From: Candidatus Raymondbacteria bacterium RIFOXYA2_FULL_49_16
GTDB lineage: Bacteria > Fibrobacterota > OXYB2-FULL-49-7 > XYB2-FULL-49-35
Assembly (NCBI GenBank): GCA_001789205.1
Contig: MFYT01000088.1
Span: 1-29,486, forward strand
Reading direction: 5' to 3'
DNA length: 29,486 nt
This document shows positions 2,306 through 29,390 of the stretch, one piece after another. Under the pieces are notes generated by a model. The model was given only the letters and a program-made list of their open reading frames with translations. It made no database searches and was not told where the DNA came from. Every line of letters begins with the position of its first letter. The first letter of the stretch is position 1. The translations under genes were made by a program, and so were the position numbers.

Positions 2306-3268
2306 ATGATTCAAAATCATTGGTCCATGCTTTCTGACCGTATTAGGACCAGTGCGTTCCGCAAGGCCATTGAGGCTGTTGTGCGGCCAGGCCAGGTTGT
2401 TCTCGACCTTGGCTCCGGCTCAGGCATCATGGCCTTTTTTGCGGCCAAGGCAGGCGCCCGCAAGGTGTACGCCATAGAACAGACAAACCTGGTCGATTTT
2501 GCCCAAAATGCCTGCACCTCCAATGGTCTTTCCGAAAAGGTCAGTTTTATCAAGGGTCATTCTTCAGATATTTCCCTGCCCGAAAAAGTTGACGTTGTTA
2601 TTTCAGAAACAATCGGTTCCATTGGTTTTGATGAAAATATCATCAGGAACTTCATTGACGCCCGCGGCCGTTTTTTAAAAACAGGCGGCAGTATTATACC
2701 CGCGCGCATGCGGGTCTTTTGCGCGCCCGTATCCGTGCCTTGCGTGCATGCGCGTATTGGTTTTTGGAAACGGAAGGTATGGGGGTTTGATTTTCCCCTG
2801 GGCCATGAGTATGCGGCGAACACGATCTATCCTGCGCGCATACGCCAGTCTCAGATGTTTGCCCGGCCGCGCTGTTTTTTTACCGTAGATCTTGGTACAG
2901 CGCAGGACGACTGTCTTGAGAGCGGTTTTTCATTCAGTATTGAACGGCCCGGGATTGTGCATGGGTTTGCCGGATGGTTTAGCGCAACCCTGTCCAAGGG
3001 GGTTGATATCACCAATGCGCCCGGCGCCAGAATCACCCACTGGAGTCAAAATATTCTTCCCCTTCCCAAACCTGTTGTTGTGAGAAAAGGCGACCGGATA
3101 CATCTTACGCTTCAGACAATTCCCCTTGAAAAGAGTTTGTTTTGGAACTGGAAGGGAGCTGTGCGTAGAGAATGGGCGGAAAAAAAGGAGCGGGTGCTGG
3201 AATTCGACCTTTCCACCTTCAGGGGCTATCCGCAGCAACTGGCAGTTGTTCGCCAGTCTTCCATTTAA
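2306..3268 (+). CDS. PRMT-like class I SAM-dependent methyltransferase
   Basis: A 320-residue methyltransferase resembling protein arginine methyltransferases. SAM motif I is VLDLGSGSG at 32-40, with the ribose-binding acid Glu58 in YAIE. The double-E loop is SETIGSIGFDE, with Glu101 and Glu110 in the spacing used by PRMTs to hold the guanidinium group. A THW sequence occurs at 244-246, followed by a beta-barrel-like segment (NILPLPKP, RKGDRIHL), matching the THW loop of PRMTs. The N-terminal HWSMLSDRIRTSAF resembles the PRMT helix that covers SAM. The arginine target is an inference from the family; bacterial members are little characterised and a small-molecule substrate is possible. It probably shares a transcript with the esterase 18 bases upstream. 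It ends 12 bases from the end of the convergent msrA. Confidence 0.8.
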   Translation: MIQNHWSMLSDRIRTSAFRKAIEAVVRPGQVVLDLGSGSGIMAFFAAKAGARKVYAIEQTNLVDFAQNACTSNGLSEKVSFIKGHSSDISLPEKVDVVISETIGSIGFDENIIRNFIDARGRFLKTGGSIIPARMRVFCAPVSVPCVHARIGFWKRKVWGFDFPLGHEYAANTIYPARIRQSQMFARPRCFFTVDLGTAQDDCLESGFSFSIERPGIVHGFAGWFSATLSKGVDITNAPGARITHWSQNILPLPKPVVVRKGDRIHLTLQTIPLEKSLFWNWKGAVRREWAEKKERVLEFDLSTFRGYPQQLAVVRQSSI

Positions 3269-3903: not shown

Positions 3904-5364
3904 TCAGGTGTCTGACAATTTCAGGAAAAAGGCGTTTCTAAGCTCGATCGCATTGTACCGGAAGAAAACAATCACTGATCCGGTCCACAGTAGCGCGGGC
4001 GCGGGAATCGCAATATACCAGGGTTGGCCGGAAAGCGTCAGGCCCAGCGTGACCAGCAGGACCACGAAAGCCAGGATCATGTTTCTGAACGAGGGCAGGA
4101 CCTTCAGCCTGCTCCGGACAATCAATGGTATTATAGCGAGGAGTACCGCATCGGTCACTGCCATGGAAAGAGCGGCCCCATAAAAAGAATAACGTGGTAT
4201 AAGCGCCATATTGAGGACAAGATTTATTGCCACACCGAAAACACGGAGAAGGGAGAGCGGCATTTTTTGCAGGCCAAGGACCAGAAGCATGTTGCCAAAG
4301 CAGTTGTTGAGGAACATCAGGAACGGCGCCATGCCCAGTATTTGGAGAACGACAATAGCTTCACGGTACTGCTCGCTAAAAATGGTCCGTATCAGGAGCG
4401 GCGCGGTTATAATGAGGCCGATAGAGAGGGTTCCGCCGATGATGGCCAGGTAATCGATGGCTTTTTGGTATATACGGTTGAGCCCTTCGATATTATTGGG
4501 AAATCGGCCTGCCATGAGCGGATAGATGGAGACCATCATAAGCGAAGAAAGCATATACGCATAATCCACGAACCTGAAGGAAGCGTTGTAGATAGCGACC
4601 GCTTCAACCCCTTTCATGTGTTCGAGAATGAGAATATTGAAGCGGTAATAGATGATCCAGAGGGCTGTGGAGATGCCCATAGGCAGGGTCTCTCTCAGCA
4701 GGAAGCGGATACACGGCATGTCCACGATGAATCGAAAAACGATGAATTTTCTGGCCCACAGAAATAAAAAGAGGCTATAGACAAGGTTTGCGCCAATATA
4801 GGTGATAATGACTGTCGTCAATGAGGCGTGGAAATAGACCGCAAGCGTGATAAGCACCAAGTGGCAGATGCGGTAAATGATCGCTGAAAAAGCCGCGTAT
4901 TCCATGCGCAGTTTTGCCCTGAACACAGATTCGAATGAGTTGAGCAGTGCCGCGAAATGAACCACGCCCATCAGAAGAATCTGTATTTTCAAAGCAACGG
5001 GATATTCCTTGGCCCAAAGGACCACGGCAAGGCACGCAACAGCAATGGTGGTGGAGAGCGCCTGGAGGACCAGGGCCGAAGACAGGAGGGAGTTGACCCG
5101 GTCTGGTTCCCATGTCTCATTTTTTGCCAGTTCGCGTACCAGGATGCTTGTGTACCCGAGGTTGGCCGCGATCCCGGCAAAACTGAAGTAGGTTATCGCA
5201 AGGCTCAACTCGCCAAAACCCCTGGTGCCCAGGTATCGGGCAAGCATACCCGTGATACACAAGCCGGTGACCAGGTTCACGGCAATGCCAATAGCCTGCA
5301 AGGCGGTGTTTGTGACCACTCGTTTTTTATTTACCAGTTCGTCGTGTGAAAGTTTTTCCTGCAT
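3904..5364 (-). CDS. wzx: polysaccharide flippase of the Wzx / MVF-PST family
   Basis: A 486-residue integral membrane protein with about 12-14 hydrophobic segments over its whole length. It fits the flippases that move undecaprenyl-diphosphate-linked glycan units from the cytoplasmic to the periplasmic face. The N-terminus ([19 protein letters not shown], then [16 protein letters not shown]) is typical of polysaccharide biosynthesis protein / MATE-like exporters. The start at 5364 is supported by AAGGTG about 8 bases upstream. It sits 29 bases behind a methyltransferase gene in a minus-strand operon of glycosyltransferases and methyltransferases. Together with the Wzy-like protein at 19537-20907 it indicates a Wzx/Wzy-dependent pathway. 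Substrate specificity cannot be read from the sequence. Confidence 0.88.
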
Positions 5365-9083: not shown

Positions 9084-10193
9084 TCAAGACCTATTTTTCG
9101 CACTGCCACGGCGCAGCATGCGAACACAAAAGGAGGCAAGCATGCCTATTCTCTTCAAATATAATTTAACCATGCTCTCGGATTCGTGGTTTGCCGTTTG
9201 CCTGATAATGGACGGCCGGGGGAAGATGGTCTCAAAGGCAAACCGCATTTTCCGTACAATCCCCGGTATAGTGAAGAAGAACAACAAATCGCCCGCCTGT
9301 TCCATTGGTTGAGCGTTCACAATACGGTCAATGATGCGCTGTTCAATGCGGTTTGGCGGGTACCCAAAAGCGCCTTTTGACAATGGAAATCCAAAAAGGT
9401 CCCTGAGAACCATGAGACTGTGGGCAAGCGGCCGTCCCACACCCAGGCGTTTGGCTTCTTCAAGCACCTGTTTCAGAAAAAGAGGGTTTGGGTTACGGTC
9501 CAGAAAAAGGGCCAGATCAACACCCCATATCCACCGGCTGTATGAGTGTTTGACCGTATGCAGGGAACAGTGGATAAACGAACGTTCGGGAGAAAGTACG
9601 AAAAGATTCGGGATTGAGGCATGAGGATGCAGAACAGTTGTATCAGTCAGGTCCGGTGAAATGAACCAGCGTGCGCTTATGCGGTCTGTTTCCAGCAAGT
9701 CAAAGTGCACATCAAAGACAAGGGAGCCTTTTTCATAGTGACCGGGATAGATTTTGTTTTGGGTAAAACCTCTTTCCGCAAATGCCTGAGCAAGCTCTTT
9801 TTTATGTTTTTGATTTACCAACAGGTCCATGTCGCAGAGGGGGCGCAGCGAAAGGTCCATATACAGGGTGTCGAGGAGCGCGCCTCCCTGTACCACGGCA
9901 AGGTCGTTGAACGGATAGCGGGAGGCTATCTCGCGGAGTTCGCTGAGCAGGGCCAGGTTGAGGGCCAGAATATCAGCGCGCATGGCAGCCCATTGACGTT
10001 CAAAAGGCTTGGGTGGAGCAATAGTGTCCTGCTTCAGAATGTAATGAGCAATTGGATACAAGCCGTGGTTTGTTATAATTGTGTGTATTTTCTCCCAATC
10101 CATGCCTGGGAAGGGCGAAATCTTGTCTACTTTTCCCAGGAAGCGTCTGAGAAGCTCGAGAATGAATCGATGTTCGGTTGATAGAAACGGCAT
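9084..10193 (-). CDS. NTP_transf_5-type nucleotidyltransferase family protein
   Basis: A 369-residue protein that fits the NTP_transf_5 family (PF14907), uncharacterised proteins with a nucleotidyltransferase core. The signature is VVQGGALLDTLY (100-111), the turn LSLRPLCDMDLLV (114-126) with metal-binding Asp121 and Asp123, and a third-acid candidate in VFDVHFDLL. The C-terminal half is helical. The ATG at 10193 sits 1 base after the stop of the PqqD-like gene; an upstream TTG at 10205 would overlap it. Members of this family recur beside PqqD-like and HPr-kinase-related proteins, in lasso-peptide and exopolysaccharide loci. That pairing is seen here, with the kinase-like protein 15 kb away at 25123-25926. 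Substrate unknown; a nucleotidyl transfer onto a peptide or sugar is conceivable. Confidence 0.75.
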   Translation of the reverse strand: MPFLSTEHRFILELLRRFLGKVDKISPFPGMDWEKIHTIITNHGLYPIAHYILKQDTIAPPKPFERQWAAMRADILALNLALLSELREIASRYPFNDLAVVQGGALLDTLYMDLSLRPLCDMDLLVNQKHKKELAQAFAERGFTQNKIYPGHYEKGSLVFDVHFDLLETDRISARWFISPDLTDTTVLHPHASIPNLFVLSPERSFIHCSLHTVKHSYSRWIWGVDLALFLDRNPNPLFLKQVLEEAKRLGVGRPLAHSLMVLRDLFGFPLSKGAFGYPPNRIEQRIIDRIVNAQPMEQAGDLLFFFTIPGIVRKMRFAFETIFPRPSIIRQTANHESESMVKLYLKRIGMLASFCVRMLRRGSAKNRS

Positions 10194-10194
10194 G

Positions 10195-10491
10195 TCAGGC
10201 CACAATCACGATATTTTTTTGCCTGGCTTTTTTCAGAAAGGGGATGACATCGGCCGTGGCCTCCGCGTCAGTGAGGCCGTATTCGCGAGCAACGGCGTCT
10301 ATGATATTCCGGACAGATTTGCCTGAGGAAGTCAGCATGTTCCAGATAAAGGCGCCGGTCTTGTTGATCCGGTGGATAGTGGAATCTTTTGGTGTGATAG
10401 CTACCAGATTGCCGTCAAGCATTCGCCAGGCAATCGCGGGATTCCGGGAGATGTTTGCATTCAGGGGAATATCCATGTGTATAAGATACAT
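10195..10491 (-). CDS. PqqD-like protein (RiPP recognition element fold)
   Basis: A small protein of about 98 residues. The segment RNPAIAWRMLDGNLVAITP, then STIHRINKTGAFIWNML, then a helical SVRNIIDAVAREYGL and a C-terminal DVIPFLKKARQKNIVIV follows the PqqD pattern of beta strands and a winged-helix. PqqD-fold proteins bind leader peptides and pass them to modifying enzymes. Three in-frame starts are possible. I prefer the ATG at 10491 (GGGG 4 bases upstream), but ATG at 10476 also works. A TTG at 10548 would fall almost at the predicted transcription start. The next gene begins 1 base after its stop, so both are surely cotranscribed. No precursor peptide gene is evident beside it. Confidence 0.72.
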   Translation of the reverse strand: MYLIHMDIPLNANISRNPAIAWRMLDGNLVAITPKDSTIHRINKTGAFIWNMLTSSGKSVRNIIDAVAREYGLTDAEATADVIPFLKKARQKNIVIVA

Positions 10492-14582: not shown

Positions 14583-16232
14583 ATGGCTTCACGTCGGGCA
14601 ACGGACAGGGTTTTGCAGGAGACGATTTTTCCGCGGCTGGCGCGGGAACTGTCGGCCAATCCGCTTGTTCTGAACGTCGGCATCCTCTGCGGTAATACCA
14701 CCCCCTTCATACTCAAGGAATTTTTTCCCTCAGCCTCATACAAGACGCTCGACCGTGACCCCACCCTGCGCCCGGATTTCTGTGCCGATCTTCAAAACGC
14801 GGACGGTCTGGTTTCACAGATCGGCCGTTTCGACCTCATCATTGTCACGGCAGTGTTTTTTCTCCTTGATGATCCGGACCGCGCGTTCGCAAACCTGGTT
14901 GCCTGCCTGAAGCCGGGGGGGCACTGCATCGTTGAAATGGACGCCTTTAACAACAGGGGTGAACGTTTTGCGTGTGAGAGCCATACCAGGGACCTGGATA
15001 TGTCCCGTTATATAAGCGCGGATATTGTGCGGCAGCCTACCTTTTCAAACCGGTATGCGATATTCTGTGAATACCAGGGTCTGGCCCCCGAAAGTGTTCC
15101 GGTAGAGAGGGCGCTTTCGTATCAGCATGATCGCAGGAGCAACGCCCAGGTATGGTCCGTTGACCCGATTTTTTCCATGCCCGGCCTGCAGGTGGTGTAT
15201 AATTTCAACAATGACGAAGAACGCATGCGGGGATGCAGTTTTTTAATTGATGCGAAACGGCTCTCCGTAGATGCCCTTCCCCGGCGCGGATACATTCTTA
15301 GCCGGTACGCGCCGCCGGCGCTGCGTTTTAGACGTCTGATACAGGCATGCTCGCGGAGCGTCTGGTATGGCAGGCTGGTTGCCCGATGGGCGGCGAAATG
15401 GTGTATGGCCGTGTGGCGGTTTGTCTCGTGCCGGATTTTCCGGAACTACAAAGGATATGCGGCCACCACCATGGCGTTGATTTTGCGCCGCTGTTGCCCG
15501 CAGAAGGGGTTCCTTATCAGGGTCGATGATTTCCCCTGCCTAAGCCATCCGTTGGAATCATTCAAGAAATTTGACGCCATTATGCGGGAGCACGCGGCAC
15601 CGTATCTTGTGGCCGCGACCCCGTACGAGTCTTTTTTCAGCAAGGGCGAACAAACACGGATCAAGGCCGGCTTCGACTGCCTTCAGGAGCGCGGCATTGC
15701 CTTCGGCCTTCATGGTTTTACCCATGAACGCGGTGAACTCGACCTGCTTCGTTCCGAACACCGACTCGACGCAATGATAGAATCAACGCTTCGGGAGATA
15801 GCCCATTACCCTGCAATGCTGCCCGTCTTTGTCCCGCCTTTCAATGCGCTTTATTATGACGATTACATTGTGTTGAGGAAATATTTCAAGATCATCACGG
15901 GCGGTCCGGAATCCATCCAGACAATGGGGTTTTTACCGCCTTTTTCATTGGGGAACGTTTGGTATCTGCCCTCGTATTGGGGATATTACGGAACCGCGCA
16001 GACTATCAGAGATTTTCTGCTGCGTACGCCGCCACAGCGGTGGTCCTTCTGCATGCCCCTGACCCTGCACTGGACCTGGGAGGCGGACAATGATTTCACC
16101 CATTTGCGAGCGTTGCTCAAACTGATCTCCGGTTCAGTAGTCGATTGGCGCGGCATTGTGCCTTCAGCCAGCGCCTTGGACCGTTTCCGTGCCCAACAGG
16201 ATTGGCATATGCCGGCCGAACCCGACAATTAA
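14583..16232 (+). CDS. methyltransferase-like domain fused to a polysaccharide-deacetylase-like domain
   Basis: A 549-residue two-domain protein. The N-terminal part (about 10-200) looks like a class I methyltransferase: LNVGILCGNTTPF (30-42) sits where motif I should be, YKTLDRDP supplies the acidic residue, FDLIIVTAVFFLL and LKPGGHCIVEM follow. Motif I is degenerate, lacking the usual GxGxG, so SAM binding is uncertain. After a basic linker (about 245-305) the C-terminal part carries RVDDFP (Asp315, Asp316), HGFTH (His377 and His381) and PPFNAL, the metal-binding pattern of NodB/DUF2334-type deacetylases. The protein would deacetylate a sugar and perhaps methylate the same chain. It lies between SDR and methyltransferase genes on the same strand, in the cytoplasm as no signal peptide is seen. 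The fusion is unusual; the ORF is uninterrupted. Confidence 0.78.
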   Translation: MASRRATDRVLQETIFPRLARELSANPLVLNVGILCGNTTPFILKEFFPSASYKTLDRDPTLRPDFCADLQNADGLVSQIGRFDLIIVTAVFFLLDDPDRAFANLVACLKPGGHCIVEMDAFNNRGERFACESHTRDLDMSRYISADIVRQPTFSNRYAIFCEYQGLAPESVPVERALSYQHDRRSNAQVWSVDPIFSMPGLQVVYNFNNDEERMRGCSFLIDAKRLSVDALPRRGYILSRYAPPALRFRRLIQACSRSVWYGRLVARWAAKWCMAVWRFVSCRIFRNYKGYAATTMALILRRCCPQKGFLIRVDDFPCLSHPLESFKKFDAIMREHAAPYLVAATPYESFFSKGEQTRIKAGFDCLQERGIAFGLHGFTHERGELDLLRSEHRLDAMIESTLREIAHYPAMLPVFVPPFNALYYDDYIVLRKYFKIITGGPESIQTMGFLPPFSLGNVWYLPSYWGYYGTAQTIRDFLLRTPPQRWSFCMPLTLHWTWEADNDFTHLRALLKLISGSVVDWRGIVPSASALDRFRAQQDWHMPAEPDN

Positions 16233-16960: not shown

Positions 16961-17012
16961 CATGTAGCCGCCGAAGGAGCGTATTGCAATACGCTCCTTC
17001 GGCGGCTACATG
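16961..17012. repeat. perfect 52-bp palindrome between convergent genes
   Basis: Two 26-base arms are exact reverse complements with no spacer; the centre of symmetry lies between 16986 and 16987. The arms start CATGTAGCCGCC and end GCGTATTG. It separates the plus-strand methyltransferase (stop at 16955) from the minus-strand GT4, whose TAG (17008-17006) and last codon fall inside the repeat. The RNA of either strand would form a very stable hairpin, so it can work as a bidirectional transcription end or mRNA 3' stabiliser. No U-tract follows on either side, so it is not a classical intrinsic terminator. It may be one copy of a dispersed palindromic repeat. Confidence 0.92.
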
Positions 17013-18202
17013 CAATGCAGTGCCTCGCTGAAGATCTTTTCCAGTTGTTCCATATGCTGTTCGTGTGTATATCGTTGTTCCGCGATTTCCCGCCCACGCA
17101 AGCCCCACTGCTCATTCTGAGACCGGTTCGTCACAAGCTGCGTAATAGCTTGTGCCAGGGCAGCGCTGTTGTTCCGCGGCACAATGAGGCCGGTTTCACC
17201 GTGGGCAAGCCAGTCGCGGATGCCGCCAACATCGAAGGCCACGCTGGGAACCCCATGGGCCATGGCCTCAATACCGTTGATGCCGAATGCTTCCAGATTA
17301 AGCGAGGGGACCACGAGCAACGCGGCGCGCCTGTAAAAACCACTAATGTGTGTATTATCGACCCAGTCATGGAAATCGACACGGTGCCGCCAGCCGGGTT
17401 TCGCCGCGATTTTTTTAAGTTCTTCGAGCTGGGGACCGCTGCCGAGAATGGAAAGGCGCAAAGGAATGGCCACCTTTTCAGCAGCCGCGAACAGCATCTG
17501 CGGCCCCTTTTCAGCCACAAGCCTGCCTACATAGAGAATTTCAGGCATGTCCCAGTCAACGGAACGCTCGATGCGCGCGGGGAATTCGGTGAAATAGGGG
17601 AGTACGACAATTTTATCAGGGTCCATGCCTTGTTTGATAAGCATTGATTTTACAAATGCACTCGCAACGCGTACCCGGCGTACGTGCGCATGGGCGCTGA
17701 GGCAGCTTTTCATCTCGCGGATCCGTTTAAGACCAAGGAATATGTTGCGCGGCATGCACTTCTGCGTATAGGCGAAGAGCTGGCATGGCCACCCCGCTTT
17801 TCTGTCGCAGACCAAGTTGAAATCGCTGGACATGCGCCTGCTTGTAGGACAGGTGAGGTCAATGCCGTGTTCGAACCTGACCGTGGGCCAGTGTTCGGCC
17901 ACAAACGAGATAAAGGCGGGATTGTGAATTTGGTGGATGTATATGACTTCAGGATTAATGGTCAAAACCGCTGATTTCAGGGAATCCATTTTTACGGGAT
18001 CGTTGGAGAAGACCTTTCCCAGCATGCCGGGAAAGGCGAGGAAGTGATGCGCTCCTTTGTACGCTTCAAGCGGTTCTTTGTGGCCATGAATGACCGATAC
18101 GTCGTGTCCGCGCTCTATTAGCGATTGGATGACTTTTATTACGTATAGTGTTGCGCCGCCCGTGGCTTGGTCTAGATACTCGTTGACGACCAGGATTTTC
18201 AT
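17006..18202 (-). CDS. family 4 glycosyltransferase with a cysteine cluster
   Basis: A 398-residue GT-B retaining glycosyltransferase. The N-terminal domain starts KILVVNEYLDQATGGATLYV. The donor domain shows VGRLVAEKG (225-233), ILGSGPQLEEL, and the E-x7-E motif EAFGINGIE (304-312). A stretch EHGIDLTCP to KCMPRN has four cysteines (118, 132, 140, 149), a pattern seen in a subgroup of GT4 enzymes that may bind a metal or form structure. The ATG at 18202 overlaps the stop of the GT87-type gene by 4 bases (ATGA). The stop codon lies in the palindrome. Sugar specificity unknown. Confidence 0.9.
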   Translation of the reverse strand: MKILVVNEYLDQATGGATLYVIKVIQSLIERGHDVSVIHGHKEPLEAYKGAHHFLAFPGMLGKVFSNDPVKMDSLKSAVLTINPEVIYIHQIHNPAFISFVAEHWPTVRFEHGIDLTCPTSRRMSSDFNLVCDRKAGWPCQLFAYTQKCMPRNIFLGLKRIREMKSCLSAHAHVRRVRVASAFVKSMLIKQGMDPDKIVVLPYFTEFPARIERSVDWDMPEILYVGRLVAEKGPQMLFAAAEKVAIPLRLSILGSGPQLEELKKIAAKPGWRHRVDFHDWVDNTHISGFYRRAALLVVPSLNLEAFGINGIEAMAHGVPSVAFDVGGIRDWLAHGETGLIVPRNNSAALAQAITQLVTNRSQNEQWGLRGREIAEQRYTHEQHMEQLEKIFSEALHCM

Positions 18203-19425: not shown

Positions 19426-19536
19426 TACTGTTGATAAAATAGCTGATTGTGAAAATGAAAACAAGGAAACTCCGTTCTGCTTGTGGTGCTCTTGATTGTA
19501 GATGTATTTTTTAGTTTTACTATTCCCAGGACGAGC
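19426..19536. promoter_or_regulatory. divergent intergenic region between GT87-type and Wzy-like genes
   Basis: These 111 AT-rich bases must hold the promoters of both genes. On the minus strand TTGTTT (19464-19459) and TATTTT (19441-19436) are 17 bases apart, placing the transcript start almost at the GT87-type ATG; with no ribosome-binding site there, leaderless translation is possible. On the plus strand TACTAT (19518-19523) is a candidate -10 with no clear -35. AGGA at 19528-19531 is a good ribosome-binding site for the Wzy-like gene. All elements are weak. Confidence 0.3.
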
Positions 19537-20907
19537 ATGCTGCAGACACAACAGGTGTATAAAATCCCGCTGCTTCTGGCCGTTATTGCGGTGGCTGTTG
19601 GTATTGGTTTTTTTGTCAACCTTCAGGTGACCCAGCCCCTGGTCGTGGTGACCGCGGTCCTGATCTTCATCGTACTGTTTCTTCACGGCGATTACATCCT
19701 TTTCGGCCTCCTTTTCTCAATGCTGCTGTCGCCGGAAATTGTCGTCGGCGAGACCGCACGCCGCGATTTTACCGTGCGTTTTGAGGATTTTATCATACTG
19801 GTCATGGCGTTTGCGTGGGTCTCAAAGATCGCCATTTTAAAAGATCCGGGTATTTTCCAGCATGCGCCTATCAACCGTCGAGTGCATCTCTATATCGCTG
19901 CATGCGTTCTGTCCACAACGTTTGGCATGTCCATCGGAGATGTGGATGTTGCCGCGGGAATGGCGTTTGTGATCAAATATATCGAGTTTTACATTGTCTA
20001 TATCGTTGTACTCAACAATATCAAGGACCGGCATTCCCTTCAGTATTATGTGTATACAATGTGTCTGGTCTGTTGCATCATCTGTCTTGTCGGTGTTGGC
20101 CAGTATATCCAGGGGCTGGGTGTGGAAGCGCCCTTTGAGGGCGGGGGCTCTATCGAGCGCAATACCCTTGGCGGCTACCTGATTTTTCTTTTTGGCCTGA
20201 CCATGGGCCTTCTCTTTTACGAAAAGCGCAGGGGGTTGCGGATTTTCCTTTTTTGCCTTGCGGTTCTTATCATTGTCACACTCGTCATCTCCCTGTCGCG
20301 CAGTTCCTGGATCGCGTTCGGGGTCATCTGCATATATTTTCTGGCAGTGGTGCGTCAATACCGGAAGCACCTTTTTGTATTCATGATCACCTTGGCCATC
20401 ATTATCCCCCTTACCGCCCCGGAAATGACCAAAGAACGCGTTTACCAGACGTTCAAACCAACGGAGACCCGGGAAAAGGTCGTCACTGTTTTTGATTTTC
20501 GTCTCGACCCTTCCATGTCCGCGCGTATTATCAGTTTTCAACGGGCGCTTGATGAGTTTTACAAACACCCGTTGCTTGGCTGGGGCATCACCGGCTTTTA
20601 TTTCATCGATAGCCAGTATTTCCGTTCTATCGCCGAAATCGGCGCCCTTGGCCTTTTGGCCTTTCTCGCCATGCTTTTTGGCATTGGAAAGGCCGCCCGG
20701 ATGGTCAGGGCGCGGCTCTCCGGGTTTGAACATGGGGTGGTTCTTGGATTTTCCGGAGGATTCGTGGGGCTGCTGGTCCATTCGCTTGCGGCAAACACCT
20801 TTATCATAGTCCGTATCATGGAACCTTTTTGGTTCCTTACCGCCATTGTCATGTACCTGTATATTCAGGAATTCCATCCTCAGGAAAAAGCAACGGAGAA
20901 AAAGTAG
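19537..20907 (+). CDS. O-antigen ligase / polymerase-like membrane protein (Wzy_C type)
   Basis: A 456-residue protein with about 11-12 membrane segments. The central ISLSRSSWIAFG and the periplasmic loop ending in RALDEFYKHPLLGWGITGFYF are hallmarks of the O-antigen ligase / Wzy_C superfamily. Those enzymes join undecaprenyl-linked glycan units to one another (Wzy) or to lipid A core (WaaL) or proteins. With Wzx in the same locus a polymerase role is more likely, but a ligase cannot be excluded. I prefer the ATG at 19537 with AGGA five bases upstream over a GTG at 19483. It is transcribed alone on this strand and ends 12 bases from the end of the convergent radical SAM gene. Confidence 0.85.
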   Translation: MLQTQQVYKIPLLLAVIAVAVGIGFFVNLQVTQPLVVVTAVLIFIVLFLHGDYILFGLLFSMLLSPEIVVGETARRDFTVRFEDFIILVMAFAWVSKIAILKDPGIFQHAPINRRVHLYIAACVLSTTFGMSIGDVDVAAGMAFVIKYIEFYIVYIVVLNNIKDRHSLQYYVYTMCLVCCIICLVGVGQYIQGLGVEAPFEGGGSIERNTLGGYLIFLFGLTMGLLFYEKRRGLRIFLFCLAVLIIVTLVISLSRSSWIAFGVICIYFLAVVRQYRKHLFVFMITLAIIIPLTAPEMTKERVYQTFKPTETREKVVTVFDFRLDPSMSARIISFQRALDEFYKHPLLGWGITGFYFIDSQYFRSIAEIGALGLLAFLAMLFGIGKAARMVRARLSGFEHGVVLGFSGGFVGLLVHSLAANTFIIVRIMEPFWFLTAIVMYLYIQEFHPQEKATEKK

Positions 20908-20919
20908 CGGGGTTTCTAA

Positions 20920-21984
20920 TCACCGACGCTTAGCCAGTTTGCAGCATCCGGCACAGCATGGCCGTGTCTTTCCGTTTTTGAAGAGTTGCCTGAACGCTGC
21001 ATAGCGCGGCGATGTCCAGAGTGAATAGAGAGATTGATCGCGAACATTGCCGATCCGGCAGTTCATACAGGGGAAAAGATCGCCATAGGGGGAGATGCGG
21101 CAGGTCTCCCAGGGGACAAAACACTGCCACGCGGCCAGATTAAAATCGCCCTGATAATACGCGACAAGATCGGCAATGGTCATGCCCCGGGGGGAAACGG
21201 AAAGCGGCAGATTTATACCGTTCGCGACATCGAATGTTTTTTCGAGGCATTCACGAAACGGCGCCGCGGAGATGCGCGGTACATTTTCCATGGGGCTGAT
21301 GTTCGGATCAATCGTGTCTCGCAGCCTGCTGGCCGACCGTTCGTACGAACCGTCCATGGCTTCGATAGAGGCCGTGTCCGCGCCTATCTCTTTCATGATC
21401 CGGATGGTTTCAGGAAGCAGTTCGTAGGTTTTCGGCAGAATGACCGCGTTGACCATGATGCGGGGCGCGCGCGTACCTGCCGTGTCTCTGGCTTCCCGGA
21501 GAGTACGTATACCGTTTACAAGTCCGTCAAACGCATTGGGTTTTCCGCGGACCTGATTGTGAATTTCACGCGGACCGTCGAGAGATAAACCTATTTGGTC
21601 AACCCTGAGTTCCACGAGGGCAGCGCACAGGCCTGGCGTCAGAAGCACGCCGTTTGTGCCAATGGTGACCGAAAAACCGCGCTGCTTCGCCTCCCGTACA
21701 GCATCGATAAATCCTTTTTTTACGAAAGGCTCGCCTCCCGTAAAGGCGATATTCGATTTTCGGGGAAGTTGTTTGACTATGTCCCGTATTTCATTGCCCG
21801 TGAGTTCAGTCCGCTTTTGGATCTCGCCCTGTTTCCGGGCGATTTCCTGCAGGTAACAGCACATGCTGCAGTTGAGGTTGCAGGCGTAGGTGACCTCAAA
21901 CACATAGTTACGGCACGAAAAAAGATAGCGCGTATTCAGGCGTCTCGGCAAGGTGTAGTACAACCAGCGGAAAAATCGTTTCAT
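20920..21984 (-). CDS. radical SAM protein with SPASM-like C-terminal domain
   Basis: A 354-residue radical SAM enzyme. The 4Fe-4S motif is CNLNCSMC (Cys35, Cys39, Cys42); FTGGEPF and IGTNGVLLT follow in the right order, and IGLSLDGP near 160 is typical. The C-terminal part from Cys288 has CFVPWETCRISPYGDLFPCMNC and later CCAGCC (Cys343-344, 347-348), a SPASM/twitch-type region that would hold one or two auxiliary clusters. Such enzymes modify peptides, proteins or small molecules. The ATG at 21984 overlaps the stop of the upstream GT4 (ATGA), with AAAGGG as ribosome-binding site. It is the last gene of the nine-gene minus operon. Its substrate, glycan precursor or peptide, is not evident. 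Confidence 0.88.
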   Translation of the reverse strand: MKRFFRWLYYTLPRRLNTRYLFSCRNYVFEVTYACNLNCSMCCYLQEIARKQGEIQKRTELTGNEIRDIVKQLPRKSNIAFTGGEPFVKKGFIDAVREAKQRGFSVTIGTNGVLLTPGLCAALVELRVDQIGLSLDGPREIHNQVRGKPNAFDGLVNGIRTLREARDTAGTRAPRIMVNAVILPKTYELLPETIRIMKEIGADTASIEAMDGSYERSASRLRDTIDPNISPMENVPRISAAPFRECLEKTFDVANGINLPLSVSPRGMTIADLVAYYQGDFNLAAWQCFVPWETCRISPYGDLFPCMNCRIGNVRDQSLYSLWTSPRYAAFRQLFKNGKTRPCCAGCCKLAKRR

Positions 21985-24317: not shown

Positions 24318-25153
24318 TTGTTGGTACCGGTTTTTCTGAACACCACAACGATGTTTCTCATGAAATAATGGCCCCAGCGCTTTTCCAGGAAACCCCAAAG
24401 GGCGGTATAGGCTTTTTGGGGCAAACGGGGGACTATGGCGGGCATGCGCCGGTACATTTTGTCCATAAGGTCTCTGAGCACAAACAACGGCTCTTTCCAC
24501 GAAGGCCAATATCCGTACCCGAGAACAGTTTCTTCTATAAGGCCAAGCGACCTGCCCGCGTTCCGGAGATCGCCATAGGAAAATTCCCGTTCCCATCCCA
24601 GTTCCCAGGCGCCTTTCCGGATCTGCGCATGTTTGTGCAGTGTATACCCGGTGAATTTTTGCGGCACATTCACCACGAGGAATCCGTTTGACGCAAGCAC
24701 ACGAACCTGTTCCAGGAAACAGGGCATGGGATCGAAAAAATGCTCCATGACTCCCTGGGTAAAAATGATGTGCAGCGAGTCCGAGGCAATGGGGAGCGCG
24801 GCCATATCAGCGGCGAAAAAGGAACACGACCCGCCTATGGCGCTGTTCATGGACCGGGCGACCGTTCCGGCTTCGACTGAAATATCTGAAACATAGAAAC
24901 GCAATAACGGGTGCCCGGCGGACAGGATGGATGCGTCAACGGCAGTCCCGCACCCCAGCTCCGCAATACGCGCGCCTGGCGCCAGTCTTGCGCACAAACG
25001 CTTCATGAGTTCAAGAAATGGCGCACGGGTGCGCTCGTGATGGTCCCTGATTTGGACCGGGTCTTTTCCATCAAGATACCCGCTCCAAACCTTCCGGTAG
25101 TCGGCAACGACGCTTTTGGGCGTTATTGTTTTTGCTGGATGAGAAATGGCCAA
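24314..25153 (-). CDS. class I SAM-dependent methyltransferase
   Basis: A 279-residue methyltransferase with motif I IAELGCGTAVDAS (63-75), acid in YVSDIS, SCSFFAADMAALPIASDSLHIIFTQGVMEHFFDP as motif IV, and VRVLASNGFLVVNVP. Its C-terminal part is longer than in minimal methyltransferases. The start is a TTG at 25153 with AGGA seven bases upstream, so the gene overlaps the 3' end of the HPr-kinase-like gene by 31 bases. No ATG or GTG closer to motif I fits. It overlaps the following GT4-like gene by 4 bases. Likely glycan methylation, inferred from context. Confidence 0.83.
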   Translation of the reverse strand: MAISHPAKTITPKSVVADYRKVWSGYLDGKDPVQIRDHHERTRAPFLELMKRLCARLAPGARIAELGCGTAVDASILSAGHPLLRFYVSDISVEAGTVARSMNSAIGGSCSFFAADMAALPIASDSLHIIFTQGVMEHFFDPMPCFLEQVRVLASNGFLVVNVPQKFTGYTLHKHAQIRKGAWELGWEREFSYGDLRNAGRSLGLIEETVLGYGYWPSWKEPLFVLRDLMDKMYRRMPAIVPRLPQKAYTALWGFLEKRWGHYFMRNIVVVFRKTGTNK

Positions 25154-25926
25154 GGAATGGTCCTGTTCCGCGGAAAACCCAGGGTTTTAACGTGCGCTGA
25201 TGAGGTAAGCCTGGCAAGGAGCGTCATGGCCCTGGTTGTGGCCAAGGGTTCCTTTTCAAACATGAAAAGACAGCGCGCAAGCTGTACCATTTTTTCTGGC
25301 CGCTCCATTTCAGTAATGGAAAACGTTCCGCTTTTGCATAAAAAATAGATTATTTTGAGCGGCGCCGCCTTGTTTTTACCCGTGCTTTTCATTTCTCCCC
25401 AAAAAGGGGTGCTGTGGACCACGAAGGTTTTTCCCCTTTGCCTGATGGCCACGATCTCATCGCTGATGACGCCATAGCGTTTGCATGCGCGCGAAATGGT
25501 GGTTTTGCCGCTGCCCGATACTCCTGGAAAGACAATTGCCATGTTGTCGCGGATGATGCCAGCCGCGTGCATAAGGCAGCCCTGTTTGCGTATGAGCAGC
25601 GAAGAATAGAGAATTCTCAGGAAAGAATCGAACGAATACCTGTTGTCAGCAATGTCCAGCGTTCCCCGCATCAGGCTCATGTTGAAAATGCATATAAAGT
25701 CAAAGCGACGTATTGTCAGTATCATTTTATGCTCAGAAAGACAGGGGATCATGGGTCCTTTTTTTCTGGTAAAAGACCGTATGGTCAGAACAGCGTTGGG
25801 GCGGCCATGGCAGGTAAAGCTGGAATAGCGTTTTCTAATTTTAATTGCCCGGGTGTATGGAAGAATGAAGCAACAGCGTATTCCCGCGATGGATAGCGTG
25901 AGCCGGCTATTGGTCTTTTGGCGCAT
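25123..25926 (-). CDS. HPr kinase-related P-loop protein
   Basis: A 267-residue protein. The Walker A sequence GVSGSGKT (135-142) is preceded by LMHAAGIIRDNMAIVFP and followed by ISDEIVAI (154-161) and VHSTPFWGEM, the order seen in HPr-kinase-related proteins, which share the HprK/PCK fold. HPr kinases phosphorylate a serine of HPr; no HPr or PTS gene is in the window. Related proteins phosphorylate lasso peptides or occur beside PqqD-like and NTP_transf_5 proteins, both present at 9084-10491. The gene starts inside the last 20 bases of the WecA-like gene and overlaps the methyltransferase gene by 31 bases, so it is part of the operon. A modifying kinase role is inferred. The first 70 residues are basic and less conserved in appearance. 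Confidence 0.78.
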   Translation of the reverse strand: MRQKTNSRLTLSIAGIRCCFILPYTRAIKIRKRYSSFTCHGRPNAVLTIRSFTRKKGPMIPCLSEHKMILTIRRFDFICIFNMSLMRGTLDIADNRYSFDSFLRILYSSLLIRKQGCLMHAAGIIRDNMAIVFPGVSGSGKTTISRACKRYGVISDEIVAIRQRGKTFVVHSTPFWGEMKSTGKNKAAPLKIIYFLCKSGTFSITEMERPEKMVQLARCLFMFEKEPLATTRAMTLLARLTSSAHVKTLGFPRNRTIPWPFLIQQKQ

Positions 25927-27022
25927 TTTTCTTGTATATCATGAGAAACGCGATAAGGATGAAAAAACAGCTGGATTGGAATATGGTGAAAATAAGGTCA
26001 AGTCCCTCGGCTGTTCTTAGCACCAGCCCGCTAAATCCTGAGACAATACAGGTGAGAAAGATCATAATCACCGCGCCCTTGGGCGAGAAACCCATGTCCG
26101 TGAGGCGGTGGTGAAAATGGTCCTTTCCCGTAAAGTGGATCCATTCGCTTGCGCTCTTAACCTTGCCGGTCCGTATGCGCATTATTGTTGTTAGGGTCAT
26201 GTCAAACACCAGCACGCCCATAATGACAGCGGGTGCAATGAGATCAAAGGGGTTGTTGGTGGCCCAGTCACCCATTATGGCCACACTGGCAAGGAAAAAG
26301 CCCAGGAAGTTACTGCCGCCGTCGCCCAGGAATATTTTCGCGTTTTTTCGCGGCCTGAAATTGTGCAGAAAAAAGCCAAGGCAGCTGCCGATAATGGCCA
26401 GACAGAGAAAGGCGAGATAGGGCTGGCCCGTGCGCATGGCAAAAACCGCGAAAAATGAGGCCACAATAATCGATATGCCCGAGGCCAGGCCATCCATGCC
26501 ATCGAGAAAATTCATGGAATTGGTAATACCCACAAGCCAAATGGTCGTAATTATGGCTTCTGTATAAAAACCGCCCAGCCAGTCGGGAATAAAAGAAATG
26601 CGGACGCCAAAAAGAATGACTACTGCCGAAGCCGCGAGCTGGAGTCCCAACCGTATTTTTGCGCTTAGATCGCGGACATCGTCAATAAACCCTGCAAAAA
26701 AAACTATGCCGCTGCCAATCAGGATTCCCTTCATGTTCCAGGAAAAATGAAAATTTAGCAGGATCGTTGTCATAAAGGCGGCGACGATTGCCACGCCGCC
26801 CGTAAGCGGGGTGGGTAGTTTGTGTATTTTCCGTTCGTTGTCCGGATCATCGACAATATTGAACAAAAGGCCAAGACGTATGGCAATGGCGTTGAACAGG
26901 TAGGAGAGGGAAAAGGAGAGAACTATAAGCATGGTCCAGTCGAGAGAAGACGGAATCGCCCCGTTTTGGTGAAGAAAGAGCATACCGCCGAGTAGAATGA
27001 TGTTCAGCGCATGAAGGAGCAT
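25907..27022 (-). CDS. WecA/TagO/MraY-family undecaprenyl-phosphate glycosyl-1-phosphate transferase
   Basis: A 371-residue polytopic enzyme that transfers a HexNAc-1-phosphate from a UDP-sugar to undecaprenyl phosphate, the first step of the glycan. About 11 hydrophobic segments are visible. Conserved features are DDPDNERKIHKLPTPLTGG (58-76), the catalytic Asp pair in FIDDVRDLSAK (114-115), NFLDGMDGLA (171-180), FLGDGGSNFLG (231-241) and the histidine-rich DHFHHRL (301-307), all in family order. This is closer to WecA/TagO than to MraY by these motifs. An AGGG ribosome-binding site precedes the ATG, 2 bases after the PIG-L stop. Its presence in the operon suggests a dedicated initiating enzyme for this glycan. 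Confidence 0.92.
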   Translation of the reverse strand: MLLHALNIILLGGMLFLHQNGAIPSSLDWTMLIVLSFSLSYLFNAIAIRLGLLFNIVDDPDNERKIHKLPTPLTGGVAIVAAFMTTILLNFHFSWNMKGILIGSGIVFFAGFIDDVRDLSAKIRLGLQLAASAVVILFGVRISFIPDWLGGFYTEAIITTIWLVGITNSMNFLDGMDGLASGISIIVASFFAVFAMRTGQPYLAFLCLAIIGSCLGFFLHNFRPRKNAKIFLGDGGSNFLGFFLASVAIMGDWATNNPFDLIAPAVIMGVLVFDMTLTTIMRIRTGKVKSASEWIHFTGKDHFHHRLTDMGFSPKGAVIMIFLTCIVSGFSGLVLRTAEGLDLIFTIFQSSCFFILIAFLMIYKKNAPKDQ

Positions 27023-27663: not shown

Positions 27664-28695
27664 TTACAGCAGAGTGTTGATGGCCTTGATAATTTTCCCT
27701 GTTTCAGCCTGGCTGAGCAGGGGATATATGGGTATAGACACCGCATGCTGATACATGTTGCTGCTGTTTGGGCATGGACATTTTTTCATGTAATCGCCTA
27801 ATAGCTTGTATATTGGCCTGCGCGCCGAGATTCCATTCTTGTTGAGCCTGCGTATCGCTTCACCGGCAAGCCCTTTGTATGTAACGATATATCTAAAATA
27901 AATATTATTCTGCACAATACCACAAGGCAAAACTCGCGGGTTTTTTATTTCCGCTGAATAGCGCGCGGCTATTGCCCGCCGTTTTGCGATAAACCATGCA
28001 AGTTGGTTCAGCTGCGAGAGGCCCATCGCGGCGTGTATATCGGTCAAACGGTAGTTAAAACGGGTCTGGTAATCGTCCTTTTCATCGTATTCCCTCAGGT
28101 CCAGTGTACGCTCCCTGATAGCGGTTGAATTGGTGAGGAGCATTCCCCCTTCACCAGCGCACAGGAGTTTGGTCGCGTAGAAGGAACACACAGCCACGTG
28201 GCCCATGCTGCCGATTTTATTTCCATTGACCTTGGATCCAAATGTATGGGCGCAATCCTCGATAACGGGCACCCCCAGGCGTTTGAAGGGGGCAAGGTCC
28301 TGTGCAAGTCCGAACATATGGGGAACAATAATTGCTTTGATTTTTTTTGTCATAAGGCGCTGTACGGATTCCAACGACAGGTTGGCATTGGTTGGATTGC
28401 AGTCGGCAATGATGGGTTGTGCGCCTACGTAATTGAGGCAGTTCAACAGGGCTGTACATACATAATCTGGTATAATGACCTTGTCACCCTTTTTAATTCC
28501 AAATGCAAGAAGGGCAAGATGGATGGCTGAGGTGCCTGAATTAACGGCAACCGCGTATTTGACACCCGCTGCCTTTGCCATGGCATTTTCAAAGGCCTCC
28601 ACAACAGGACCGCCCGTAACCATGCCCGATTCAAGGACTTTTAACACGTTTTTCCGGTCAGCAGTGGTAATGGTTGGACGTGAATGGGGAATCAT
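27664..28695 (-). CDS. DegT/DnrJ/EryC1/StrS-family sugar aminotransferase
   Basis: A 343-residue PLP enzyme that aminates a keto-sugar nucleotide. Family features: SRPTITTADRKNVLKVLESG at the N-terminus, AVNSGTSAIHLAL (50-62), GDKVIIPDYVC, PVIEDCAHTFGS (143-154), and the PLP-binding Lys176 in SFYATKLLCAGEGG. It is shorter than WecE and diverges strongly from it, so it handles a different sugar. The ATG at 28695 overlaps the stop of the wbqC-like gene by 4 bases. Its place between WbqC and PIG-L suggests that the three act on one amino sugar, which is then N-modified. The exact product cannot be told. Confidence 0.9.
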   Translation of the reverse strand: MIPHSRPTITTADRKNVLKVLESGMVTGGPVVEAFENAMAKAAGVKYAVAVNSGTSAIHLALLAFGIKKGDKVIIPDYVCTALLNCLNYVGAQPIIADCNPTNANLSLESVQRLMTKKIKAIIVPHMFGLAQDLAPFKRLGVPVIEDCAHTFGSKVNGNKIGSMGHVAVCSFYATKLLCAGEGGMLLTNSTAIRERTLDLREYDEKDDYQTRFNYRLTDIHAAMGLSQLNQLAWFIAKRRAIAARYSAEIKNPRVLPCGIVQNNIYFRYIVTYKGLAGEAIRRLNKNGISARRPIYKLLGDYMKKCPCPNSSNMYQHAVSIPIYPLLSQAETGKIIKAINTLL

Positions 28696-29390
28696 ATGGC
28701 GCCTCCGGTCATGAGTATTTCAAGGCTTTTTTCACCGCAATTGAAGAGAAGATCGATAATAGACAGATTGGGAATAAATGTTTTCTGTTCCTTAAAGGCC
28801 ACCTGGGGGTATTGGGGACAGGTGAATTCCTGGTATTGGAGGGAAATGCCTGCTGTGGGAAAGGCATTTTCATCAAGATACTGCTTGCCGCCTGGTCCGG
28901 AAAGATACGTGTCCGCGCTCAAGGCCTTGCAGATAGCTATGAGCCGTTGGGTTGAATGGCCTTTGATCTTCAAGTCAGATGCAAGAACAATGGAACAGCG
29001 CAATCCGAGTATGGTGGCAATGGCTTTTATGAGTGTAGCGTTGAGGTCTGAAAGGCTGTGATACTCGCGCGAAAGAATTGTTGCTATTTCAGGAAAGAAT
29101 TGCTTGAAGAACGGGGCGCGTGAATAATTCATTTCCAGGGCAGCCAAATGCTTTTTCGCCCATTTCTGGCGTGAGTCAACGGTCACTTCACTGAGGAGCT
29201 GAGGAAAGGAATAGTTTACAGGTACTGTCAGAAATTGTTCACCCTGCGCGGTTTTTATGCGATTACGGTTTTGCCATTCGTTTTTGTGGTATTGGGCGTC
29301 GTTGAGCAGTACAAAAGCGTCGCACAGCGCCATCTTGTGAAAATAGCCCACATAAGCGAGGTATTGAGGTTGGTGGATGGCGCAGATCAT
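28692..29390 (-). CDS. WbqC family protein
   Basis: A 232-residue protein that fits the WbqC family, named from O-antigen loci. Recognisable stretches are AIHQPQYLAYVGYFHKM (4-20), VLLNDAQYHKNEWQNRNRIK, FLTVPV, TYLSGPGGKQYLD and FTCPQYPQ followed by LSIIDLLFNCGEKS. The function of the family is not settled; it is assumed to take part in sugar modification such as N-acylation. It is the first gene of the nine-gene minus operon seen in the window, directly before the DegT-type aminotransferase gene, which it overlaps by 4 bases. The ATG at 29390 has no good ribosome-binding site. Confidence 0.88.
   Translation of the reverse strand: MICAIHQPQYLAYVGYFHKMALCDAFVLLNDAQYHKNEWQNRNRIKTAQGEQFLTVPVNYSFPQLLSEVTVDSRQKWAKKHLAALEMNYSRAPFFKQFFPEIATILSREYHSLSDLNATLIKAIATILGLRCSIVLASDLKIKGHSTQRLIAICKALSADTYLSGPGGKQYLDENAFPTAGISLQYQEFTCPQYPQVAFKEQKTFIPNLSIIDLLFNCGEKSLEILMTGGAI

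Follow-up and report, generated by a model that had tools for sequence, protein, structure and literature searches.

Three genes of a polysaccharide locus in this Fibrobacterota genome, coding for a PqqD-fold protein, an NTP_transf_5 nucleotidyltransferase, and an HprK-like kinase, are likely to represent RiPP maturation machinery co-inherited with a Wza/Wzc/Wzy locus, the precursor peptide and a radical SAM enzyme (rSAM) being located on another contig (C78) of the same genome. The window, that is, the whole stretch of DNA analyzed (29,486 bases), is a complete contig (C88) of a 5.43 Mb genome in 112 contigs, whose organism is the sole member of its family among the 167 Fibrobacterota genomes compared. 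The original prediction had proposed a glycan-locus peptide-modification system of four parts; three of them (PqqD, NTP_transf_5, and HprK), which co-occur with a precursor, can be retained, whereas the rSAM cannot. Its alternative idea, a peptide-controlled regulator of glycan assembly, found no support. The genes of the window on which the discussion is based are the following:

3904-5364, minus strand: Wzx-type flippase, given as context (PF01943, 86.7 bits)
9084-10193, minus strand: NTP_transf_5 nucleotidyltransferase (PF14907), for which an LppN/PsmN-like role is proposed
10195-10476, minus strand: PqqD-fold RiPP recognition element (RRE; PF05402), 93 aa from its likely true start
17006-18202: GT4 glycosyltransferase
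19483-20907, plus strand: Wzy_C polymerase/ligase (PF04932, 57.2 bits)
20920-21984, minus strand: radical SAM/SPASM enzyme, not counted as part of the RiPP set
25123-25926, minus strand: predicted HprK-like peptide kinase, directly after wecA, for which an LppK/PadeK-like role is proposed
25907-27022, minus strand: WecA-like initiating phosphoglycosyltransferase (PF00953, 130.8 bits)
27664-28695, minus strand: DegT aminotransferase
28692-29390, minus strand: WbqC

Two other genes of the window are worth recording in their own right: one (2306-3268) encodes an arginine methyltransferase PRMT_C domain (57.5 bits), which is unusual in bacteria, and one of the glycan locus (14583-16232) a methyltransferase-like domain fused to a deacetylase-like DUF2334.

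Enzymes encoded in the window

The small protein matches PF05402 in the Pfam search with 54.9 bits (cut-off 23.4). Its start is better placed at position 10476 than at 10491, as the first reading had it, because relatives begin at the matching Met; its gene ends at 10195 and the ATG of the NTP_transf_5 gene lies at 10193, which confirms the one-base spacing described originally. The PqqD fold, which the original prediction had named as a point of possible refutation, is supported by an AlphaFold model (mean pLDDT 80) matching RRE-leader complexes, namely those of TbiB1 (TM 0.74-0.77). Moreover, residues N38, D76, and F80 align with the leader-contact residues N33, D70, and F74 of LppB, all of them being kept. 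The score against the PQQ_PqqD equivalog model (23.1 of 46 bits) is below the cut-off. In the RRE tree a weakly supported fork (83/53) places LppB on the side of the window protein and the lasso RREs on the opposite one, and in the PqqD tree the window copy is nearest to the versions found in exopolysaccharide loci, with moderate support (86/44).

A similar picture emerges for the nucleotidyltransferase, assigned to PF14907 in the Pfam search (119 bits vs. a cut-off of 31.2), in which G103, R117, D121, D123, and H163 are invariant and the metal-binding DxD is kept; the nearest rows of its tree are again proteins of exopolysaccharide loci (moderate support, 81/49). The HprK-like protein scores below every curated cut-off (HprK_rel_A, 27.2 of 200 bits; ScmC, 25.6 of 125). 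It possesses the invariant His120, the P-loop SGSGKT, and Asp156, and a structure prediction of modest confidence (mean pLDDT 69) matches PEPCK and HprK/P; these residues and this fold argue for a genuine HprK-like kinase. In the HprK tree it groups with the HprK of exopolysaccharide loci, with moderate support (88/79).

The precursor peptide and the radical SAM enzymes

The original prediction had reported no precursor peptide. This holds for the window, where neither the intergenic gaps (up to 169 bp long at the ends, up to 105 bp elsewhere) nor the small ORFs with a [YW]xxP motif, all of which were inspected, contain a credible one; a YILPRF motif upstream of the PqqD gene was discarded as a precursor, since it falls in the start extension absent from relatives. 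It does not hold for the genome. Indeed, a precursor profile built from four peptides and searched against the 167 genomes of the phylum gave strong matches (E below 1e-25) in exactly seven of them, the match of the source genome being on contig C78 (14130-14282, E 7.5e-26), where two genes are of interest:

C78, 14127-14291: candidate precursor gene, 54 aa, encoding MNGKQKETADKKRAEYEPPTIESESVFERRALSCGKCRTGPHRQHACMQLPSTS
C78, 14288-15319: radical SAM/SPASM enzyme belonging to the maturase clade

The rSAM gene overlaps the precursor gene by 4 bases, and wza and wzc lie on the opposite side of the precursor. The seven sequences share the pattern YxPPxhESExxFExxALxCGKC...C...S, with YxPP, E22, E24, FE, AL, CGKCR, C47, and the last Ser invariant in the alignment; Ser is the last residue in all seven (and also in a precursor from Planctomycetota). 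Pairwise comparison gives 26% identity ahead of the Tyr, 73% within the leader motif, and 77% for the core. Since synonymous codon differences outnumber the amino-acid-changing ones over all pairs (367 vs. 206), the C78-type precursor is a real gene under selection. No Pfam or NCBIfam family matches it, and the analysis suggests a peptide family not described before that is associated with polysaccharides of the cell surface. As for the surroundings, three proteins are encoded beside the C78 precursor (L126:4617-14114): one of 2285 aa that combines a G8 domain with propeller repeats, a propeller protein of the PQQ type carrying a Por secretion tail, and one of 325 aa that matched no Pfam family. 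Their homologues flank the precursor in other genomes as well.

The window rSAM was found, like the HprK-like kinase, where it had originally been reported (20920-21984 and 25123-25926, respectively), and both its domains exceed their cut-offs (radical SAM, 77.9 bits; SPASM, 44.8 bits). In the tree, however, it forms a long branch outside the peptide-maturase clade, and its sole strong relative in the 167 genomes (G033:C36, 57% identity) adjoins, in a glycan cluster, a homologue of the window GT4 gene (17006-18202), with no PqqD or precursor in the stretch read around it. The tree and this glycan neighbourhood rule the window enzyme out as a peptide maturase; it is probably a glycan-locus enzyme, and the maturase predicted for the source genome is the C78 rSAM overlapping the precursor. 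It might still be argued, from their physical co-location and from the coincidence of the window ends with the contig ends, that all four window genes, rSAM included, form a single RiPP set whose precursor lies beyond the contig end. We deem this very unlikely, given the position of the window rSAM, the glycan cluster in which its relative is found, and the fact that the C78 precursor brings its own orthologous rSAM.

Gene organization in related genomes

PqqD is present in 104 of the 167 genomes. At least 10 non-Fibrobacter genomes harbor a compact cassette HprK-PqqD-rSAM-S26 peptidase-NTP_transf_5, mostly just downstream of a flagellin gene, and the Fibrobacter arrangement is HprK-S26-PqqD-ABC exporter, in some cases with one or two NTP_transf_5 genes. 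The original prediction had set the co-occurrence of homologues elsewhere as a test, and the same families do form tight cassettes in relatives; the grouping in the window is therefore more than chance. In each complete cassette of the flagellin type that was inspected, a short ORF stands beside S26, and it separates S26 from NTP_transf_5 wherever the latter is a neighbour; it starts with KxYxxPx[IV], the rest being mostly Cys-containing, and on these grounds it is read as a precursor peptide. The ten control loci, of Fibrobacter and other origin, gave no such ORF in a search with the KxYxxPx[IV] motif; a candidate precursor was found by separate inspection in one Fibrobacter locus (L075). The flagellin-type precursor profile found nothing in the source genome, which shows little because the profile is very diverse.

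Several observations on these loci can be added. The flagellin gene is directly upstream of an HprK-PqqD-rSAM-S26-precursor-NTP_transf_5 cassette in many relatives (L041, L046, L047, L052, L056, L060, L062, and L064), and a lone NTP_transf_5 gene adjoins a flagellin-like gene in the source genome itself (G000 C63, L010). One NTP_transf_5-type protein (L056:5118-6938, 606 aa) carries a long extra C-terminal part resembling a propeller. A short protein encoded beside rSAM and PqqD (L049:7848-8165) begins with YRKPEL and contains three repeats (ACKCTMGQSKAMAP / ACHCTMGQARAMTP / ACHCANGG); it looks like a multi-core RiPP precursor. L069:5693-5857 encodes a PqqA-like precursor (WQKPEFEEINMNAEIGSYQE) with PqqD and rSAM as its neighbours, which is apparently a PQQ operon within this phylum. 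In a further setting (L042, L043, L048, L050, L051, and L067), PqqD has TPR-type proteins on one side and, on the other, a likely ATP-grasp enzyme, a PLP decarboxylase-like protein, and an M23-like membrane protein, as read from their sequences.

The link with polysaccharide synthesis comes from second copies of HprK and NTP_transf_5 located in the Wza/Wzc/Wzy locus of other families. The clearest case is G031:C6 (L140), where a single strand carries all the parts in a stretch of about 17 kb: the precursor, an HD-domain protein, rSAM, PqqD, DegT, WbqC, GT4, a GT9 heptosyltransferase, and a STAS protein, then WzyC, Wzc, Wza, S26, HprK, NTP_transf_5, a second HD-domain protein, and WecA. The window shares with it WzyC (5e-88), WecA (1e-101), DegT (1e-88), and WbqC (3e-79). 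The window too has WecA just upstream of HprK, and the WecA relatives of L082, L084, L089, and L140 lie two genes from NTP_transf_5-HprK-S26, the WbqC-DegT pair being part of the RiPP-bearing locus in L140, L055, and L092. In G154:C85, HprK-S26-precursor occurs with NTP_transf_5; PqqD was not seen in G154, nor PqqD of the window's type in G040. When 84,980 species genomes were scanned with two short precursor motifs, a Planctomycetota contig with the full six-gene set (precursor-HprK-S26-PqqD-rSAM-NTP_transf_5) and a Deltaproteobacteria contig with precursor and PqqD came up besides Fibrobacterota genomes; since such motifs reach near relatives only, this phyletic range is a lower bound.

The connection between the window enzymes and the C78 precursor rests on these relatives, because the parts of the source genome are split over contigs. 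All six genomes whose HprK groups with that of the window, the source genome included, carry the precursor, and the seventh precursor genome (G033) is 79% complete. One might suppose that HprK, PqqD, and NTP_transf_5 act instead on a sugar intermediate or on a protein of the polysaccharide machinery (e.g., Wzc or a glycosyltransferase), their proximity to peptide systems reflecting ancestry only; the three genes are indeed embedded among glycosyltransferases and the precursor lies outside the window. This is unlikely in our opinion, as the leader-contact residues of the RRE are kept and the counterparts of the three genes are found together with a conserved precursor within the same polysaccharide locus.

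A second cassette of the source genome has also to be considered. On contig C55, HprK, PqqD, rSAM, and S26, without an adjacent NTP_transf_5, form a compact cassette of the kind described above, adjacent to its own precursor, the leader of which (KYLKPAVESDLIYETQALGC) is close to that of C78. The genome possesses two copies of PqqD and two strong HprK (C88 and C55 in both cases), and a single S26 (C55). No PqqD, HprK, or S26 was found in the 40 kb read of the 48 kb of C78; since copies of PqqD and HprK are on C88 and C55 only, the C78 precursor would have to use its RRE and kinase in trans. The similarity of the two leaders and the absence of NTP_transf_5 next to the C55 set could suggest that the window set serves the C55 precursor, or both, rather than mainly the C78 one. 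Little credence can be given to this possibility, because the C55 precursor has its own adjacent HprK, PqqD, rSAM, and S26, and the window copies cluster with genes associated with the precursor of the C78 type. The S26 protein of C55 (L007:6637-7089) has Cys for the catalytic Ser (GGYCM), with His and Asp kept, whereas those of the related loci keep Ser, His, and Asp; it may serve the C55 precursor alone.

Proposed maturation and comparison with known systems

According to the reading that we favor, in which the window enzymes mature the C78 precursor, the PqqD-fold RRE would bind the YxPP leader of the 54-aa peptide (step 1), and the C78 rSAM would modify the Cys-containing core, its Cys residues being the obvious candidates (step 2). 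HprK would then phosphorylate a Ser, probably the invariant C-terminal one (step 3), NTP_transf_5 would add a sugar or nucleotidyl group to the Ser phosphate (step 4), and an S26 peptidase, which in the source genome could only be that of C55, would cut the leader off near the ALx/C junction (step 5). The sequences themselves show the gene content, the co-occurrence, the conservation of leader, core, and terminal Ser, and the intactness of the catalytic motifs; from these we infer the binding, the order and chemistry of steps 2-5, and the action of the window enzymes on this precursor. In particular, phosphorylation of the terminal Ser is modelled on paeninodin (in LPP, the target of the kinase is Ser3), and the action of NTP_transf_5 on its phosphate is likewise proposed by analogy.

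The closest known system is that of the linear polyphosphorylated peptides (LPP RiPPs), described in 2026 as restricted to Bacillota (PMC13381572). There, N33, D70, and F74 of the RRE hold the YxxP leader, a Ser receives one to several phosphates from an HprK-like kinase, and a SpI-like Ser-His-Asp peptidase cuts the leader, helped by the RRE (PMC13381572). The system analyzed here resembles it in the discrete PqqD-fold RRE, the HprK-like kinase, the NTP transferase, the placement in capsular polysaccharide loci and, in part, the YxxP leader and the S26/SpI-like Ser-His-Asp leader peptidase, the latter in related loci. It differs in that an rSAM/SPASM maturase overlaps or neighbours the precursor, in that the core contains Cys and, at 77% identity, is conserved where that of LPP varies, and in that its parts are split over loci and belong to Fibrobacterota and Planctomycetota, not Bacillota; rSAM, conserved Cys core, and new phyla are what it adds to LPP. 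The LPP leader YxxPxVLxHQxIxFETxxS is matched in YxxPx[IV] and, with other spacing, in the later FE, the HQ and FET being absent. An MsbA-type exporter is present in the Fibrobacter cassettes; none was found in the window or recognised in L126 or L140. The S26 leader peptidase is present in related loci and absent from the window. We therefore do not file the system as LPP, because no MsbA exporter was found in the locus, the leader consensus is shared only in part, and the one S26 of the source genome, on C55, may serve another precursor.

Paeninodin and pseudomycoidin provide examples of kinases and NTP transferases acting on peptides of this sort (reviewed in PMC9266682), and LPP a further example for the kinase (PMC13381572); in pseudomycoidin, hexoses are placed on phosphoserine only with the help of PsmN, which resembles NTP transferases (PMC9266682). 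In the comparison with these lasso peptides (PadeK, PsmK, and PsmN; PMC9266682), the likeness concerns an HprK-like kinase acting on a C-terminal Ser, a discrete RRE, and an NTP-transferase-like partner required for hexose on the phosphate; the difference lies in the absence of a B2 peptidase here and in a Cys core with rSAM instead of macrolactam threading. Given that kinase, RRE, and NTP-transferase families also tailor paeninodin-type lasso peptides, the window enzymes might be viewed as paeninodin-like lasso machinery with cyclase and leader peptidase encoded elsewhere. However, the B2 peptidase domain PF13471 is absent from the whole genome, no cyclase or macrolactam synthetase was recognised in the neighbourhoods read, and relatives use an S26 peptidase and rSAM; since the standard lasso route is closed to a genome lacking B2, this idea is largely refuted and hardly tenable.

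PQQ biosynthesis (PqqA/D/E) shares with our system a PqqD-fold protein, an rSAM/SPASM enzyme, and a short precursor with a [YW]xxP-like leader, but has no counterpart of the kinase, the NTP transferase, and the S26 peptidase. HprK-like, PqqD-like, and rSAM families also occur together in the HPr-rel-A and SynChlorMet systems (TIGR04352, TIGR04248/04249/04251), membership of which was rejected, as all the models scored far under their curated cut-offs (27 of 200, 15.4 of 100, 25.6 of 125, and 62.6 of 400 bits).

LPP and paeninodin peptides are known from capsule loci, with role unknown (PMC13381572). A tentative and rather doubtful idea is that the peptide represents a structural or capping part of the exopolysaccharide, a phosphodiester joining its terminal Ser to the glycan or, given the vicinity of WecA, to its first sugar; if true, the kinase and NTP_transf_5 would produce a ribosomal peptide that is covalently bound to a polymer of the Wzy type. 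The compact clusters of the Planctomycetota and G154 type are small enough to be expressed, which makes the role of a phosphopeptide in a polysaccharide locus testable. The case also shows that a RiPP precursor can be encoded far from its enzymes, a situation missed by cluster-based mining. Finally, the fixed core is conserved across several families of Fibrobacterota and inherited with the Wza/Wzc/Wzy locus, and this conservation argues for a defined job, be it structural, signalling, or cofactor-like, rather than for a variable antibiotic.
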